The notes under the pieces were generated by a model. That model worked only from the letters and a program-made list of their open reading frames with translations. It was not told where the DNA came from and searched no databases. This document shows positions 3,099-9,694 of a stretch of DNA of 64,000 bases, piece after piece (the stretch's first letter is position 1; every line of letters begins with the position of its first letter). This DNA comes from Dechloromonas sp. (GTDB taxonomy: Bacteria > Pseudomonadota > Gammaproteobacteria > Burkholderiales > Rhodocyclaceae), in the NCBI GenBank assembly GCA_011391255.1, contig JAABQV010000006.1, positions 109,044-173,043 of the forward strand. Reading direction: 5' to 3'. Position numbers and translations under genes: made by a program.

Positions 3099-3836
3099 TC
3101 AAACTGATATAACAACTTTCTGATAAAGACCGCCAAATCGACAAACTTTGACAATGCTTCGCGGAACCAGCCTCGGTTGGAGATAACTGCTGATCTCTTT
3201 TCGCCACAGATCGCAAGCAAAGGGCTCCAGTGCAACCAAAATCACTTTCATGACATAGCGAAGCGGGTTGCTCCACCCCGGCTTGTGATAGTCGACAATA
3301 ACAACTTTTCCGCCTGGCCTTGTTACGCGGATGGCCTCGGCCAGCGTGGCTCGCCGGACAGCTTCAGGCTGCTCGTGCAGCAGGAAAAATAGCAGGGTCG
3401 AGTCAAAACTGGCGTCTGGAAATTGCAGATGGCTGGAATCCTGATGATGCAGGCGAACGCGAGCATCAGGCACCAGCTTGGAGCGCAGGTTATCAAGCTG
3501 AATCGGCGCAACGTCGATCACATCCAGCGTTGCCTTTTTACCCATCCGGTTGGCAATCTGTTGTGTAAAGTCGCCGTACACACAGGCCAACTGCAGGATT
3601 TTTTGATCACTTGCGTCACCTAAATCATTCAGCGCAAGGTCACGCAATTTTCTGAAATTACCCCAGAGAATCAGATTAACCAGCCATTCGCGCTCAAATA
3701 AACGTACCGCATTGGGGTGAAGGTATGCCCACCAGTAGGTCGTTTCAAGATATTCCGGAATACTTGGATCAGAGCCAGTGCGAGGCAGATGTTCAAGGGG
3801 GGAAAGGGCGGCGACGCATTCAGCGCTTTGCTTCAT
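3099..3836 (-). CDS. rquA: rhodoquinone biosynthesis methyltransferase RquA-like
   Basis: ORF with P-EYLETTYWWAYLHPNAVRLFEREWLVNLILWGNFRKLRD and the atypical SAM motif ILQLACVYGDFTQQIA, which I recognise as RquA-type rather than UbiE/UbiG-type. Confidence 0.82.
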   Translation of the reverse strand: MKQSAECVAALSPLEHLPRTGSDPSIPEYLETTYWWAYLHPNAVRLFEREWLVNLILWGNFRKLRDLALNDLGDASDQKILQLACVYGDFTQQIANRMGKKATLDVIDVAPIQLDNLRSKLVPDARVRLHHQDSSHLQFPDASFDSTLLFFLLHEQPEAVRRATLAEAIRVTRPGGKVVIVDYHKPGWSNPLRYVMKVILVALEPFACDLWRKEISSYLQPRLVPRSIVKVCRFGGLYQKVVISV

Positions 3837-3911: not shown

Positions 3912-4523
3912 TCAACCTTTCTTGTTGTGCTCTCCTTCGCCACCTTCCCAGCCGGTCAGCATGGCTTTTAGATGGGCAGTCACTGTGTGTCCAGTCGTGA
4001 TGAGGTAGACGTGGGCAATGAAGAACGCCAGCATCATGAAGGCACCTATCGTATGGATTAGAGCGATCGTAGCCAGATCCAGGCTCTGACCGAGCCCTGC
4101 AAGCTCGTTGTAATACAGGTAGAGCAAACCGGAAATCCACAGGATGGGATTGATCAGCACCTTGACCGCCAGGTAGGCCTGGGCCTGCATGGGGTTGTGC
4201 TTGCGGCCACGGGTAACGACGAAAGGATGCGGCTCACCCTGAAATATCCCCCAGGCGTAGTGACGGAATACCTTGTCTACGCCCTTCATCGTCGGAATAT
4301 ATTGCCGCCATTCGCCGGTGATAAAATGCCAGAAGATAGCGAACACCCAGAGAACGATGAGTGCCCAGGCAGCAAACGTATGAACCTGATGGGCCAGCAA
4401 AAAGCCAAGCAAGTTATAGGTTCCATGAATTTCGAAACCGGTAATCATCATGCCGATGACCAGAAATGCTTGCGTCCAGTGCCAGAAGCGCTCGAAGCGG
4501 GTAAAGATGTAAATGCGTTCCAT
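3912..4523 (-). CDS. cytochrome b/b6-domain membrane protein (thiosulfate reductase/formate dehydrogenase gamma-like)
   Basis: MERIYIFTRFERFWHWTQAFLVIGMMITGFEIHG...AHQVHTFAAWALIVLWVFAIFWHFITGEWRQY; multiple TM segments with conserved His. Confidence 0.82.
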   Translation of the reverse strand: MERIYIFTRFERFWHWTQAFLVIGMMITGFEIHGTYNLLGFLLAHQVHTFAAWALIVLWVFAIFWHFITGEWRQYIPTMKGVDKVFRHYAWGIFQGEPHPFVVTRGRKHNPMQAQAYLAVKVLINPILWISGLLYLYYNELAGLGQSLDLATIALIHTIGAFMMLAFFIAHVYLITTGHTVTAHLKAMLTGWEGGEGEHNKKG

Positions 4524-4539
4524 GATGGTTTCCCCGAAA

Positions 4540-6162
4540 TCAGTGCTTGCGACGCAGAAAGCGGATCAGCCCGTGCAGTAACACACCAGCCAGCGTGCCG
4601 CCGACGGCGAGCCAGCCGAACAGGTTCAGCAAACTGTTGGCATCGCGTCCAGGAATGTAGATGCCTTCGATCTTGTCAAGGCGCCCACCTTTGGCATGGC
4701 ATTCATTGCAACCCACAGCTTTTTCCTTGGGCGCAACCATGTGCGTGATCGGCCAGGACATGTCGGTCTTGATAAAATCATACTTGCCGGAGTATGGAGT
4801 ACCGGACGCTTTCATGCCGGTATCGATAGCCTTCTCCCAGCCAAAGTTCTTCCAGTACGCCGTGTCATCGTTACCCGCCGTATGGGGCGTAACCAGCGTC
4901 TTGTTCTCCGAGTCGAACGGCTGCGACCCACGGAACACCTTCATCGGCCAGATCAGCGACTCGCCATCACTGGCGCTACCGCCCATCTTGTTGATGTGAG
5001 TAACGCCTTCGTTCTTGTCAATTTTGTCGCCAAGCAGGGTATAGGTTACTTTGCCGTTGAACCAGGCGTACTCTGGGGTGACGTTCTCACCCAACGTGAA
5101 GTCGCCTTTCTTGGAGTCGTAAATAACCTGGCCCTTGTCATTTTTTTTGATGATTGGCTTGCCCTCTGGTGTCAGCTGGCCGGCAGTCGACCAGTCCCAA
5201 GTCATCTTGGTAGCAACACCACCGCGGGCGATGGCCGGGATATGGCAAGTCTGGCAAGCCACTTTGTCGGTGTGGTGGTTTAACTTGCTTGCCAAGCCAG
5301 CATCCTTGTGCGGCGCCTGACCATGGCATGACTGACAAGTCGCAGGGTTGCTTTTATCTTCTTTGCCACGGATGTGAGCACCACCTTTGTCCTTGCCGAC
5401 AGGTGTGTATCGGCTGCCCGGAACCTCATGGCTGGATGTCTTGTGGCAGGTGCCACAGGTGAAATCCAAACCCGTGGCATCCATGTGAACATCAAGATCC
5501 TTGTCTGGAGAGGCCAGTGATGAATCCATGTCGCCATGCTTAACGCCATCGCCACCACCACCAAAGAAGTGACAAGCACCGCAGGTATCACGGCTGGACT
5601 TACCAACCTTCTGCCCAATCTTGGTCAGGTCAACACCTTTGGCGATCTTGCCCGACCCCGGAGGGATTTCGGTGTCCTTGTAGGGTGGGTGACCGGCCAA
5701 CCCCGGCAGTTTGCGATATGACCCAGTGGTGTCGTGGCAAGCCAGGCAATCGACGTTTTCTTCGGACTTGAAGTCAAAACTGGCATCCTTCCAGCCGTAG
5801 CCGACATGGCAACTGCTGCAAAAGGCAAGATTCGAAGGTACTGATATACAGAAGTTATTAATAACATTCTTCTTGCCAAGCCGTTGCTGATTTTCCGGAT
5901 TCAGAAAATCCCAAGTCCAGTGCTTGGTACGGTGAACCTGCTTGGCCGCCTCGGTATGGCAGGTGAGGCAAGCCTTGGTCAGTTCCGGACCGGAACTGAA
6001 GGTCTTTTGCAATTCCTTGAACTTGCCATGATCCGCTGTCGAGTCCATCTTGACTGATGGCGGTGCGCCGGCGAAGGCATTGCCGGCAACCAGCAAGACA
6101 GCCAGCAGCCTGGTAGCGTCTGGACACAACTGCGCCAGACGCCTGAATAGCACGTGCTTCAT
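4540..6162 (-). CDS. octaheme c-type cytochrome, tetrathionate reductase (OTR) family, with C-terminal TM anchor
   Basis: Eight CxxCH motifs counted: CLTCH, CSSCH, CLACH, CGACH, CGTCH, CQSCH, CQTCH, CNECH; N-terminal signal; C-terminal TM LLNLFGWLAVGGTLAGVLLHGLIRFLRRKH. Confidence 0.88.
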   Translation of the reverse strand: MKHVLFRRLAQLCPDATRLLAVLLVAGNAFAGAPPSVKMDSTADHGKFKELQKTFSSGPELTKACLTCHTEAAKQVHRTKHWTWDFLNPENQQRLGKKNVINNFCISVPSNLAFCSSCHVGYGWKDASFDFKSEENVDCLACHDTTGSYRKLPGLAGHPPYKDTEIPPGSGKIAKGVDLTKIGQKVGKSSRDTCGACHFFGGGGDGVKHGDMDSSLASPDKDLDVHMDATGLDFTCGTCHKTSSHEVPGSRYTPVGKDKGGAHIRGKEDKSNPATCQSCHGQAPHKDAGLASKLNHHTDKVACQTCHIPAIARGGVATKMTWDWSTAGQLTPEGKPIIKKNDKGQVIYDSKKGDFTLGENVTPEYAWFNGKVTYTLLGDKIDKNEGVTHINKMGGSASDGESLIWPMKVFRGSQPFDSENKTLVTPHTAGNDDTAYWKNFGWEKAIDTGMKASGTPYSGKYDFIKTDMSWPITHMVAPKEKAVGCNECHAKGGRLDKIEGIYIPGRDANSLLNLFGWLAVGGTLAGVLLHGLIRFLRRKH

Positions 6163-6192
6163 GTTTTTCCCCCCGGAAAACGGTGTTCTAGA

Positions 6193-7389
6193 TTACTTCT
6201 TTTCGACGATGCTGTAGCTACCGTCCTTGTTCCACTTGATGTCAGCATCAAGGAAGTAAGTTTTTAGCGCCGGCTTGTAGAGCTTGGCCATGTCATGGGC
6301 TTCGCCGCTACGTCCACCCGCGCCGCAAAAGAAAATAATCGGCTTATCCGACGGCAGTTCATCGATACGTTTTTCCAGCGAGTTGACCGGGAAATTGACG
6401 GCGCCTTTGAAGGTGCCGGTAGCGACTTCAGCCGGATCGCGGACATCGATCAGATGAACGCTGGTCGGTGCTTCCTTGTACATTTTCTCAAACGAAGGAA
6501 CACTGATTGTGCCGCTTTCCTTGCCCGCCTGGATTGCTGGCGGAGCCGGCTTGGCTGCGCTTTCAGCCGTCGGGCCGGGACCGTAGAGCTTTTCCCAGGC
6601 CGGGTAGCCGTCAGGAACAACCTTGACTGAGGTATAGCCCAGTTTCACGGCCTTGGTGGCAGAGTCCGAGCTCAGTTTACAACTCAGACCTTCGCAGTAG
6701 AAATAAAGCTGTGAAGCCTTGTTAGCCGGCAGACGGTCAACCATTTTGTCGAACTGCAGGTCAGGAATATTAATGGCACCAGGAATATGGCCCTTGTCGA
6801 ACTTGCGCTCCTTGGGGCGCGAGTCGATCAAGGTCATCGGAGCCTTTTCATCCATTAATTTCTTGATGAAAGGCACACTGACCGCGCCAATATGGCCGTT
6901 CTTCAGCCAGTCCGGATAGCCCTCGGCATAAACCTGAATATTGGTGTAGCCGAGCTTTTCAGCACGGAAGGCCGAATTGTGACTGAGCATGCATTCGGGG
7001 CCGTCACAATAGAAAATTAACAAGGTGTTCTTGTCTTTTGGTAACTGATCGACCAGTTTGTCAAACTGGGTGTCCGGCAAATTCATTGCCGTCGGGATGT
7101 GACCTGGATCATATTTGCGGGCCGCCGGGCGCGAGTCGATGATCTGGACGCCTTCCGGCTTGGGCAGAATCGCATGCTTGGCGACAAAATCGGCTTGAAC
7201 CAGCTTGGGATACCAATTGGCCTTGGGTTGGACAACGGCTTCTTCTGCAGCTAAAACGACAGAAGGGAAAACCGTCGGTACAGAAAAAATGGCGGCCAGC
7301 AACGCTGCAACCGCAAGCGGGTGATTTGATCTCATGATGAACTCCAACAAAATGGGTGGCTTGAAAGCCAAAATAGAGAGGTGGTTCAA
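6193..7389 (-). CDS. secreted protein with three rhodanese-like domains
   Basis: Three repeated LIDSRP/LIDVRDPAE blocks with candidate Cys loops YCDGPECMLS, YCEGLSCKLS, FFCGAGGRSG; signal peptide. Confidence 0.88.
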   Translation of the reverse strand: MNHLSILAFKPPILLEFIMRSNHPLAVAALLAAIFSVPTVFPSVVLAAEEAVVQPKANWYPKLVQADFVAKHAILPKPEGVQIIDSRPAARKYDPGHIPTAMNLPDTQFDKLVDQLPKDKNTLLIFYCDGPECMLSHNSAFRAEKLGYTNIQVYAEGYPDWLKNGHIGAVSVPFIKKLMDEKAPMTLIDSRPKERKFDKGHIPGAINIPDLQFDKMVDRLPANKASQLYFYCEGLSCKLSSDSATKAVKLGYTSVKVVPDGYPAWEKLYGPGPTAESAAKPAPPAIQAGKESGTISVPSFEKMYKEAPTSVHLIDVRDPAEVATGTFKGAVNFPVNSLEKRIDELPSDKPIIFFCGAGGRSGEAHDMAKLYKPALKTYFLDADIKWNKDGSYSIVEKK

Positions 7390-7395
7390 CCAGCC

Positions 7396-7800
7396 TTAAC
7401 TGCAGCTGGCCGGGGCATCACCATCCTTGGCGCCCTTGAGAACAAAGGCCTTGAGGTCGTCAAGGAGTTCTTCGTCAGGCACATCAGCGAACTTCTCGGC
7501 TGCCTTGTTCTGCGCCTTGATGCTGGCGCGGTAGCTCTTGCTGAGATATTGCTTCATCGAGTCCTTGCCCTTGGCGTGCTTGTCTGCCTTGAGATAGGCG
7601 ACCCACTCGGCCTTGGTCATTGTACTCGGGGCGATCGACCCGCCCGCCTGGGCAGCGTGACAGGCAGTACAAACACTACGGTAATAGACGCGACCACGTT
7701 TCCAGTCAGCATCGTAGGCAAAGGCGAAAGATGTGGCACAGGCCAAACCAAGGGCCACTGCCGAGCGAAATATTGCTTGCGTTTTCATACCAGCCTCCAA
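7396..7800 (-). CDS. monoheme c-type cytochrome
   Basis: Signal peptide and CTACH heme motif; MKTQAIFRSAVALGLACATSFAFAYDADWKRGRVYYRSVCTACHAAQ. Confidence 0.82.
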   Translation of the reverse strand: MEAGMKTQAIFRSAVALGLACATSFAFAYDADWKRGRVYYRSVCTACHAAQAGGSIAPSTMTKAEWVAYLKADKHAKGKDSMKQYLSKSYRASIKAQNKAAEKFADVPDEELLDDLKAFVLKGAKDGDAPASCS

Positions 7801-7840
7801 TATAAGTCAATGATTTTTATGGATATTAATATTTTGAAAA

Positions 7841-7871
7841 GGGTACCAATCAAAATTTTTGATTGGTACCC
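7841..7871. repeat. 31-nt perfect palindrome (15-bp arms, 1-nt centre) upstream of the cytochrome c gene
   Basis: GGGTACCAATCAAAA-T-TTTTGATTGGTACCC read directly. Confidence 0.9.
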
Positions 7872-7922
7872 AACTCCCTCATTGATCATACCTCTGGGGT
7901 ATTAACTATTGCTTAAATAAAT

Positions 7923-7936
7923 ATGATCTAAATCAA
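7923..7936 (-). promoter_or_regulatory. candidate FNR/ANR-type box
   Basis: ATGAT-CTAA-ATCAA, 9 of 10 matches to TTGATnnnnATCAA, upstream of the cytochrome c/sulfur module. Confidence 0.45.
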
Positions 7937-8004
7937 ACATCGTGCAAATTTAAGCGATCTAAGGCAAGCCGGACATGCCAATTCGGCAGATCGCCGAATG
8001 CACC

Positions 8005-8427
8005 TTAGAAGGTCAGCGCTTTTACATTTGCTTGAAGCATGTATGAAGCGATTTCGGATGGCTTGGCGACGGAAATGCCTTCAAGCAGATCAGTTAGCTT
8101 GAGGTCGCTGTTTGGCAGGAATAGTGCGCATACCTCAACTTTCGCGCCACCCTTCATCAGCCCTTGAAGCATCTGATTCGGCGTCACGTTGCGCGGCTTG
8201 AGCACGCCACCTTCTTTACCCTTGACTGCCAGCTGGCCGCCTTCGCTGCAAAGCAGGACACGAACGGGACTTTTCTGCTCCATTGCCTGAGCCGCCAAAA
8301 CCATCGCCACGCCCTGAGTTTGCGTAGTGCCCGAGTTGATCATGAGCAGAAGCTCAGGACTGCTGTCGGCGATCGCCGGAAGCGCGCACGATAGTCCAAG
8401 GACGAGAGCAATAATCTGTTTTTTCAT
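8005..8427 (-). CDS. secreted DsrE/DsrF-like family protein
   Basis: MKKQIIALVLGLSCALPAIADSSPELLLMINSGTTQTQGVAMVLAAQAMEQKSPVRVLLCSEGGQLAV; DsrE-like fold pattern and sulfur gene context. Confidence 0.65.
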   Translation of the reverse strand: MKKQIIALVLGLSCALPAIADSSPELLLMINSGTTQTQGVAMVLAAQAMEQKSPVRVLLCSEGGQLAVKGKEGGVLKPRNVTPNQMLQGLMKGGAKVEVCALFLPNSDLKLTDLLEGISVAKPSEIASYMLQANVKALTF

Positions 8428-8449
8428 GGTGTTTCCCCTAAGGATCAAG

Positions 8450-9694
8450 TTAGAAAAGCGTAAATTTACTCGTCGATTCATTGTAGCGAACCAATCCGTA
8501 CCAGATTAGCAAGAGCCCGCCAGAAACCAGCAATGCCCAACCCCAGCCACCCATCATTTCCGGCAGATAAGCCTGAAATCCTACCCGGGTCATCTCAAAG
8601 GTTTCGAGATTGCTCTCGTCGATCGCTGTGATATTGAACTTCTTGAACAATGAACTGGCGACAGAGCCAATCCAGGCGAAGAAAAACATCGCCACCCAAA
8701 GCTTGATGTGCCCTTCGCCCATGCGCCATAAGCCACCAGAGGCACAGCCACCGGCGAAGATCATGCCAATGCCGAAGATGAAACCCCCCATAAGCGAACC
8801 AATCCAGAACGTCGGTGGAATGGCAACATAGGGATCGATGACTTTCTTTTCGAACAACAATGCGGCGATCGGTATCCCTATCGCGAGGGCCAGCATCACT
8901 GCTTTTGTCATGTCACCCTCGGCCGTAACGAAGGGTTCACGGAAAGCGCGGGCAAAGCACAGCCGTGAGCGGTGCATGACGAAACCGATTGCAAACCCGG
9001 CAAGGATGATTAGCGCACGAATCGCTAACTGCTCGTTCCCGGAACCGTACCAACTAGTGGCCCAGAGCATGACGCCAACCAGAGTTATCAGACCAGCCAG
9101 CGGGTAGAATTTTTTAACTGCCGGCGGCACAACCAACGAAGGCGGTGGCTCGGTGCCCCACTCGATATTTTCCAGCGTCCACAACAGGAGCTTGACGCCG
9201 AGGGCCGCCCCCAGCAACAGGCCAGCCCACATTGCCCAGCCGGCCGGCGATGAGTGCAGCACCGGGTTGAAAAAACCGCCGGTTGTACAACCTCCGGCCA
9301 AAGCTGCGCCGATACCCATCATGCCGCCACCCAGCGCCGCCCAGAGAAACTCTTGCTTGGGCGGGAGATTCGGCGCAAATTGCCTTGAGAGCAATGCCGC
9401 TGTAAATGCACCCAAAACAAGCAGCGAATTCATCAGGGACATCCGGTGCGTCAGGAAGCCGTCCAGTTCCGAGGGTATGCCGAGCGCCGGGCCAAGGCCG
9501 ATCAAATTGTTGATCCAGTCGCCCCAGAATTTGACACCGCCAAAGACCCCCCAGAACGTGCCATTTACCATCAGGCCGAAAATAACCAGAAGCAGAAACA
9601 TGGCGCCAAGAAAAGGTGACCATTCGTTAACAAAAACCTTTTGGTAATCCGACTTGAATCCACTAACCCAAACATTACCAGCTTCGTTTGCCAT
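8450..9694 (-). CDS. YeeE/YedE (TsuA-like) sulfur-compound transporter
   Basis: Multi-TM ORF with GGCTTGGFFNP, SRLCFARAFREP and GGCASGGLWRMGEGH Cys motifs. Confidence 0.87.
   Translation of the reverse strand: MANEAGNVWVSGFKSDYQKVFVNEWSPFLGAMFLLLVIFGLMVNGTFWGVFGGVKFWGDWINNLIGLGPALGIPSELDGFLTHRMSLMNSLLVLGAFTAALLSRQFAPNLPPKQEFLWAALGGGMMGIGAALAGGCTTGGFFNPVLHSSPAGWAMWAGLLLGAALGVKLLLWTLENIEWGTEPPPSLVVPPAVKKFYPLAGLITLVGVMLWATSWYGSGNEQLAIRALIILAGFAIGFVMHRSRLCFARAFREPFVTAEGDMTKAVMLALAIGIPIAALLFEKKVIDPYVAIPPTFWIGSLMGGFIFGIGMIFAGGCASGGLWRMGEGHIKLWVAMFFFAWIGSVASSLFKKFNITAIDESNLETFEMTRVGFQAYLPEMMGGWGWALLVSGGLLLIWYGLVRYNESTSKFTLF

Follow-up and report, generated by a model that had tools for sequence, protein, structure and literature searches.

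The window analysed here, a stretch of 64,000 nucleotides from a Dechloromonas sp. (contig JAABQV010000006.1, forward-strand positions 109,044 to 173,043), carries on its minus strand, at positions 3912-9694, six genes that include an octahaem cytochrome c of the OTR family. We are highly confident that the OTR, its b-type cytochrome (cytB), a monohaem cytochrome c (cytC) and a triple rhodanese constitute a conserved sulfur module, and the best reading is that this module belongs to sulfur oxidation, not sulfur respiration. A preliminary description of the window had proposed the six genes as a set; all six open reading frames (ORFs) were confirmed, with families assigned by Pfam and NCBIfam searches and by fold matching. 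The ORF coordinates give the following order, 5' to 3':

8450..9694, minus strand: YeeE/YedE-type sulfur transporter (YeeE), 414 amino acids (PF04143; TsuA structures 6leo and 8k1r)
8005..8427, minus strand: DsrE-fold protein, predicted to be periplasmic (alignment; PF02635 in 14/17 family members; Foldseek)
7396..7788, minus strand: divergent monohaem cytochrome c, cytC (family alignments)
6193..7341, minus strand: periplasmic triple rhodanese, rho (PF00581, three times)
4540..6162, minus strand: octahaem cytochrome c of the OTR family with a C-terminal transmembrane anchor (TIGR04315; 1sp3)
3912..4523, minus strand: PhsC-like b-type cytochrome, cytB, predicted quinone partner of the OTR (PF01292)

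Conservation of the gene set

In the family survey, which covered 42 loci with ORF clusters built under a codon-position filter, a b-type cytochrome was paired with the OTR in 42/42 loci, and some loci also held cytC, YeeE, rhodanese and DsrE genes in shuffled order and orientation. A second survey searched a separate collection of named genomes with cytC as the bait and retained the best 80 of 132 hits. Thirty-eight of these 80 loci had at least 17 kb of DNA and, with a bait alignment itself built from OTR-linked copies, OTR and cytB were present in 38/38, the rhodanese in 37/38, YeeE in 21/38 and DsrE in 9/38. The clustering of the six families exceeds chance by far, and the co-occurrence in related genomes that the preliminary description had set as a check was found in both surveys. 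The module hosts include Sulfuritalea, Sulfurisoma, Sulfuricella, Sulfurimicrobium, Rhodoferax, Thiobacillus, Aromatoleum, Azoarcus, Dechloromonas, Azonexus, Accumulibacter and one Magnetospirillum. A locus on a contig labelled Selenomonadales (L126) is nearly identical to Accumulibacter and Propionivibrio loci and is probably contamination or a mislabelled metagenome-assembled genome (MAG).

In the phylogenetic tree, the module OTRs formed a single clade of 40 rows with high support (Shimodaira-Hasegawa-like approximate likelihood ratio test, 99), and 39 of the 40 are linked to cytC; the remaining locus (L051) is cut by a contig end. The Shewanella-type OTRs fell far outside this clade and, unlike the window module, have neither a C-terminal anchor nor an adjoining cytochrome b.

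The redox proteins

The window OTR scored 632 bits against TIGR04315 (curated cut-off 375), aligned with the Shewanella oneidensis OTR (1sp3) along its whole length (E 1.5e-117) and contains exactly eight CxxCH motifs. The equivalents of C64, D150 and K153 of 1sp3, which we take to be catalytic residues of the Lys-ligated active-site region, are all kept in the window protein; among the cytC-linked OTRs, C64 and K153 are kept in 87/87 and D150 in 86/87. The window OTR thus shares with the Shewanella protein and its soluble kin the TIGR04315 family, the eight haems and these three residues. Among 153 OTRs examined, the Shewanella type and a small number of further basal rows lack the C-terminal transmembrane helix, which in three more proteins is just under the threshold or cut off. 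The adjoining cytB matched PF01292 (E 6.7e-21) and is most similar to PhsC of a reductase; OTR-cytB pairs without cytC are present in many genomes.

In vitro, OTRs can use tetrathionate, nitrite and hydroxylamine as substrates for reduction (PMC6449678). For a Beggiatoaceae OTR whose gene adjoins that of a thiosulfate-reductase-type cytochrome b, the same study gives a rate of 93 umol/min/mg with tetrathionate, above the rate with nitrite. Tetrathionate/nitrite reduction is a candidate activity for the clade of the window OTR.

The monohaem cytochrome matched PF13442 weakly. Family alignments revealed a single haem motif (CTACH), an invariant His71 and no conserved Met, while Cys129, one residue before the C terminus, is kept in 11/11 full-length sequences of the family and in almost all of a set of 41. 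A fold search with the cytC model returned no close solved relative. Its identity as a di-haem TsdA was rejected, as it has one CxxCH only and no TsdA match in Pfam or NCBIfam. This protein may be either a second electron partner or, by means of its C-terminal Cys, a sulfur-bearing redox carrier.

The sulfur-transfer proteins

The rhodanese comprises three PF00581 domains, with YCxGxxC loops in the first and second and FCGAGGRS in the third, and its five Cys are kept in 76-79 of 79 relatives. A link to a selenoprotein (Tso), hinted at by the NCBIfam TsoB model, was dismissed as rhodanese similarity alone.

The DsrE-like protein has a signal-peptide-like N terminus and two residues, Cys60 and Cys100, that are invariant in the family alignment. 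It scored 17.5 bits against PF02635 (gathering score 22.7) and so gave no match at the Pfam default threshold; 14/17 members of its family reach this domain, and its structural model matched YchN, DsrEFH and TusBCD (Foldseek E 4e-7 to 2e-4). As judged from the modelled fold, it is a divergent member of the DsrE/DsrF superfamily. Its phmmer matches to designed PPR proteins covered short stretches only and were set aside as repeat artefacts.

The YeeE protein matched PF04143. In the alignment with TsuA, its Cys136, Cys246 and Cys317 coincide with the three Cys conserved there, and they are invariant in 61/61 relatives. The NCBIfam TsuA models scored 101 bits against a cut-off of 400 and 84 against 645; YeeE was therefore not classed as TsuA itself.

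Linkage to the Dsr pathway

To relate the module to sulfur metabolism, a family draw of 151 genomes and an order-wide draw of 300 genomes were used. In the family draw, cytC was found in 20 genomes, and an OTR in 20/20 of these. The dsrA gene was present in 18/20 genomes with cytC and in 20/131 others (p 5e-11), or in 13/15 versus 8/53 when counted by genus (p 5e-7); in the order-wide draw, it was present in 9/9 versus 55/291. soxB was also enriched with cytC, more weakly than dsrA, and the three genomes in the family draw that share the genus of the window lacked both cytC and dsrA and kept soxB. OTRs without cytC showed no dsrA excess (7/22). As a control, the nirS-like nitrite reductase family PF02239 showed no association with cytC (14/20 versus 80/131, p 0.62), and the window genome gave no PF02239 match. 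These results bear out the earlier suggestion of a link to sulfur and speak against one to nitrite reduction.

The window genome itself contains the gene set of the reverse-Dsr pathway (dsrAB with dsrEFH, dsrC and dsrMKJOP), arranged as an oxidative-type operon, dsrABEFHCMKLJOP, with tusA- and dsrE-like genes before it; dsrA was found by model, and the dsr genes following it were named from the ORFs read in order.

Among 50 named module genomes, YeeE was part of the module in 26/30 with dsrA and in 1/20 without (p 5e-9), and in 19/23 versus 1/16 where both flanks were long enough (p 2e-6), with many of the genomes being draft MAGs in which absences may be gaps, such as that of dsrA in L095. 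The DsrE and rhodanese genes in the same modules were not split by dsrA. The split of YeeE indicates that the core is possible without Dsr and that the importer is added along with Dsr. The clade mates of the window OTR have neither YeeE nor dsrA; the window genome has both, and its YeeE-dsrE pair forms a separate upstream block. The label of sulfur respiration in the preliminary description is not supported, because the hosts are often oxidisers of the Dsr or Sox type, YeeE tracks Dsr, and the host dsr operon is of the oxidative type.

Proposed mechanism and alternative explanations

We propose, tentatively and a little short of even confidence, that the OTR is an S-S reductase of the periplasm that draws on quinol and supplies a sulfurtransferase relay, which in Dsr oxidisers is coupled to sulfur import. 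The cytochrome b would oxidise quinol and pass electrons to the membrane-anchored OTR, whose Lys-ligated haem would be the site where S-S bonds of tetrathionate, of a polythionate or of polysulfide are broken. The freed thiosulfate or sulfane sulfur would then be handed to the rhodanese and, in modules that have one, to the DsrE-like protein in the periplasm. In Dsr-type oxidisers, the window host included, YeeE would import sulfane sulfur for TusA, DsrEFH, DsrC and reverse DsrAB. The analysis establishes the gene set, its synteny, the OTR clade, the conserved catalytic residues and the dsr linkage; the direction, the substrate and the order of transfer are inferred, and the substrate cannot be fixed from sequence. 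This reading is the most likely one given two published findings: the in vitro reduction of tetrathionate by OTRs, including the one adjoining a cytochrome b in Beggiatoaceae, which favours the reductive direction (PMC6449678), and the delivery of sulfur from the periplasm by a member of the YeeE family for oxidation in the cytoplasm (PMC11582611). Genes for sulfide oxidation and its control near some loci also favour it: FisR-like regulators adjoin five module loci and the second OTR of the host, an FccB-like gene adjoins a module in L163, and fccAB-like genes lie beside cytC-YeeE in L159. The reduction step by the OTR may serve sulfur activation more than terminal respiration.

Several observations weigh against this proposal. 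First, 20 of the 50 named module genomes hold cytC without dsrA (present in the other 30), and Dsr is therefore not needed for the module core. Second, the YeeE/dsrA correlation comprises only seven phylogenetically independent pairs, of which about four agree, none oppose and three are uninformative (p 0.125). Third, in G008, G017 and G065 the cytC-YeeE genes are distant from any OTR, and the OTR of the genome is of another clade, while in L103, L128 and L137 an OTR is absent nearby; the sulfur-transfer half can therefore occur without an adjoining OTR. Fourth, the in vitro activities of OTRs were measured with artificial donors and so do not settle the direction in vivo.

The strongest alternative is the opposite direction, in which the OTR would be a thiosulfate, persulfide or sulfide dehydrogenase passing electrons to cytC and/or through the cytochrome b to quinone, with the oxidised product carried onward by the rhodanese and YeeE. 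We consider it a real possibility, albeit a doubtful one. Many module hosts are sulfur oxidisers, a dedicated cytochrome c is the hallmark of the module, and TsdA, which is unrelated to OTR, runs in both directions. In addition, in G017 (L159:5042-8766) the cytC-YeeE genes lie beside genes resembling those of flavocytochrome c sulfide dehydrogenase (FCSD; fccAB-like), next to sat-aprBA and far from any OTR. However, the characterised OTRs are reductases (PMC6449678), cytB is closest to PhsC of a reductase, and OTR-cytB pairs without cytC exist in many genomes.

It is unlikely that, in line with the sulfur respiration of the preliminary description, the module serves to respire tetrathionate or some other oxyanion of sulfur as terminal acceptor, with the sulfurtransferases handling by-products only. 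Although the OTR family and the cytochrome b type are shared with measured tetrathionate reductases (PMC6449678), and the adjoining rquA would provide a low-potential quinone, YeeE follows the Dsr oxidation pathway, and rquA is near just 2/80 other loci. A role in the FisR-controlled detoxification of reactive sulfur (sulfide or persulfide), with energy not the main purpose, is quite improbable: FisR-like, persulfide dioxygenase, FCSD-like and exporter-like genes do occur near related OTR clades, but they mark those other clades, whereas the module clade is linked with Dsr and YeeE, and few modules have a FisR gene nearby (4/80 named loci). That the OTR is a nitrite or hydroxylamine reductase lying beside sulfur genes by chance is very improbable, since, despite the reduction of both compounds by OTRs in vitro (PMC6449678), the sulfur synteny is conserved and nirS-like genes are neither associated with cytC nor matched in the window genome.

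The transfer of sulfur from periplasm to cytoplasm in sulfur oxidisers has been described as poorly understood (PMC11582611). Extending the reductive proposal, the module could supply the step of sulfur activation and transfer that is missing from the picture of Dsr oxidisers: a quinol-fed OTR would break S-S bonds in the periplasm, and the sulfur would pass through a new monohaem cytochrome, cytC, with its C-terminal Cys as carrier, and a periplasmic rhodanese/DsrE relay to YeeE, for import to reverse Dsr; we regard this fuller version as rather speculative.

Comparison with known systems

The component families are already known; no description of the assembled gene set was found in the open-access literature searched, and one may exist elsewhere. 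In the Beggiatoaceae OTR BOGUAY_2386, the OTR gene is likewise followed by that of a thiosulfate-reductase-type cytochrome b, and tetrathionate reductase activity was measured there; its neighbours are thiosulfate/polysulfide reductase genes, and the excerpts of that study considered here do not mention a rhodanese, YeeE or monohaem cytochrome partner (PMC6449678). The importers SoxT1A and TsuA share with the window YeeE the family, the three cysteines and sulfur import for cytoplasmic oxidation (PMC11582611). They are linked to sox and sHdr, whereas the window YeeE is linked to the OTR module and reverse Dsr, and in the alignment its two halves come in the opposite order to those of TsuA. The YTD cluster (YeeE-TusA-DsrE), found in disproportionators and cable bacteria, likewise has YeeE beside a DsrE-fold protein and is proposed to feed Dsr (PMC13293266); by contrast, the window DsrE-like protein has a signal-peptide-like N terminus and no adjoining tusA, and it is accompanied by an OTR and cytochromes as redox partners.

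What OTRs do in the living cell is uncertain, and the module suggests a job for them. An OTR clade with fixed sulfur-transfer partners, and with an importer mainly alongside Dsr, provides a testable hypothesis on both the OTR role and sulfur import. It also cautions against carrying the annotation of the Shewanella OTR over to the whole family.

Transcription units and the adjoining rquA gene

Two further features of the window lie between or next to the module genes:

7846..7872, minus strand: hairpin in the dsrE-cytC gap, with a stem of about 14 pairs and a few T residues in a row after it
3099..3836, minus strand: rquA, rhodoquinone biosynthesis methyltransferase (NF038261, 296 bits)

The intergenic gaps are 22 bp between YeeE and dsrE and 54, 30 and 16 bp within cytC-rho-otr-cytB, compared with 216 bp between dsrE and cytC. 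The hairpin in this gap is a near-perfect palindrome (GGTACCAATCAAAA/TTTTGATTGGTACC) with a minimum free energy of -23 kcal/mol over a 61-nt segment (z -4.18) and is probably a terminator or operator. Because the 216-bp gap holds this strong hairpin, two transcription units (YeeE-dsrE and cytC-rho-otr-cytB) appear more likely than one. A single operon for all six genes is doubtful. No regulator gene adjoins the window module; a sigma54-site scan of the window gave no excess over shuffled sequence, and a sigma70 scan gave a count below expectation.

The rquA gene lies 75 bp downstream of cytB on the same strand. Of the 80 other loci, two have it nearby: in Azonexus (L076) it comes directly after the module on the downstream side, and in L133 it is some 3 kb further away. 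It is possibly the tail of the module operon, outside the conserved core, and a low-potential quinone from its pathway would suit a sulfur reductase.

Other OTR clades and FisR-like regulators

The host has a second OTR with a cytochrome b (L033:6759-10456; contig C60 of the host genome, approximately 42.8-46.5 kb). This OTR is convergent with a FisR-like sigma54 activator bearing Cys at 53, 64 and 71 (C-x10-C-x6-C, N-terminal domain), and a sigma54-like site, TGGCACAAAACTTGA, lies 35 bp upstream of its start. Regulators with the same motif adjoin the module loci L055, L108, L111, L125 and L126; these cysteines are presumably the sensing residues of Cupriavidus FisR. Upon modification by sulfane sulfur, FisR activates sigma54-dependent sulfide-oxidation genes (PMC8469610; PMC7315123). 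The FisR regulon, with its sqr-pdo operons activated by sulfide and sulfane sulfur, resembles OTR loci, the host paralog included, in having a three-cysteine regulator alongside, unlike the window module. The second OTR of the host is likely a sulfane-sulfur-induced OTR of another clade. In that clade, FisR-like regulators occur with FCSD-like or exporter-like genes, and persulfide dioxygenase and cytochrome bd genes surround a further OTR clade.

In a sister OTR clade (L038, L042, L044, L052, L063, L071 and L072), a porin-like protein of about 600 amino acids lies alongside the OTR, a secreted protein of 105 amino acids occurs in 6/7 loci, and a divergent rhodanese is added in L044 and L052. 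A DUF302-like protein precedes other OTR copies in 12 loci (L050, L053, L057-L059, L061, L065, L067-L070 and L073).

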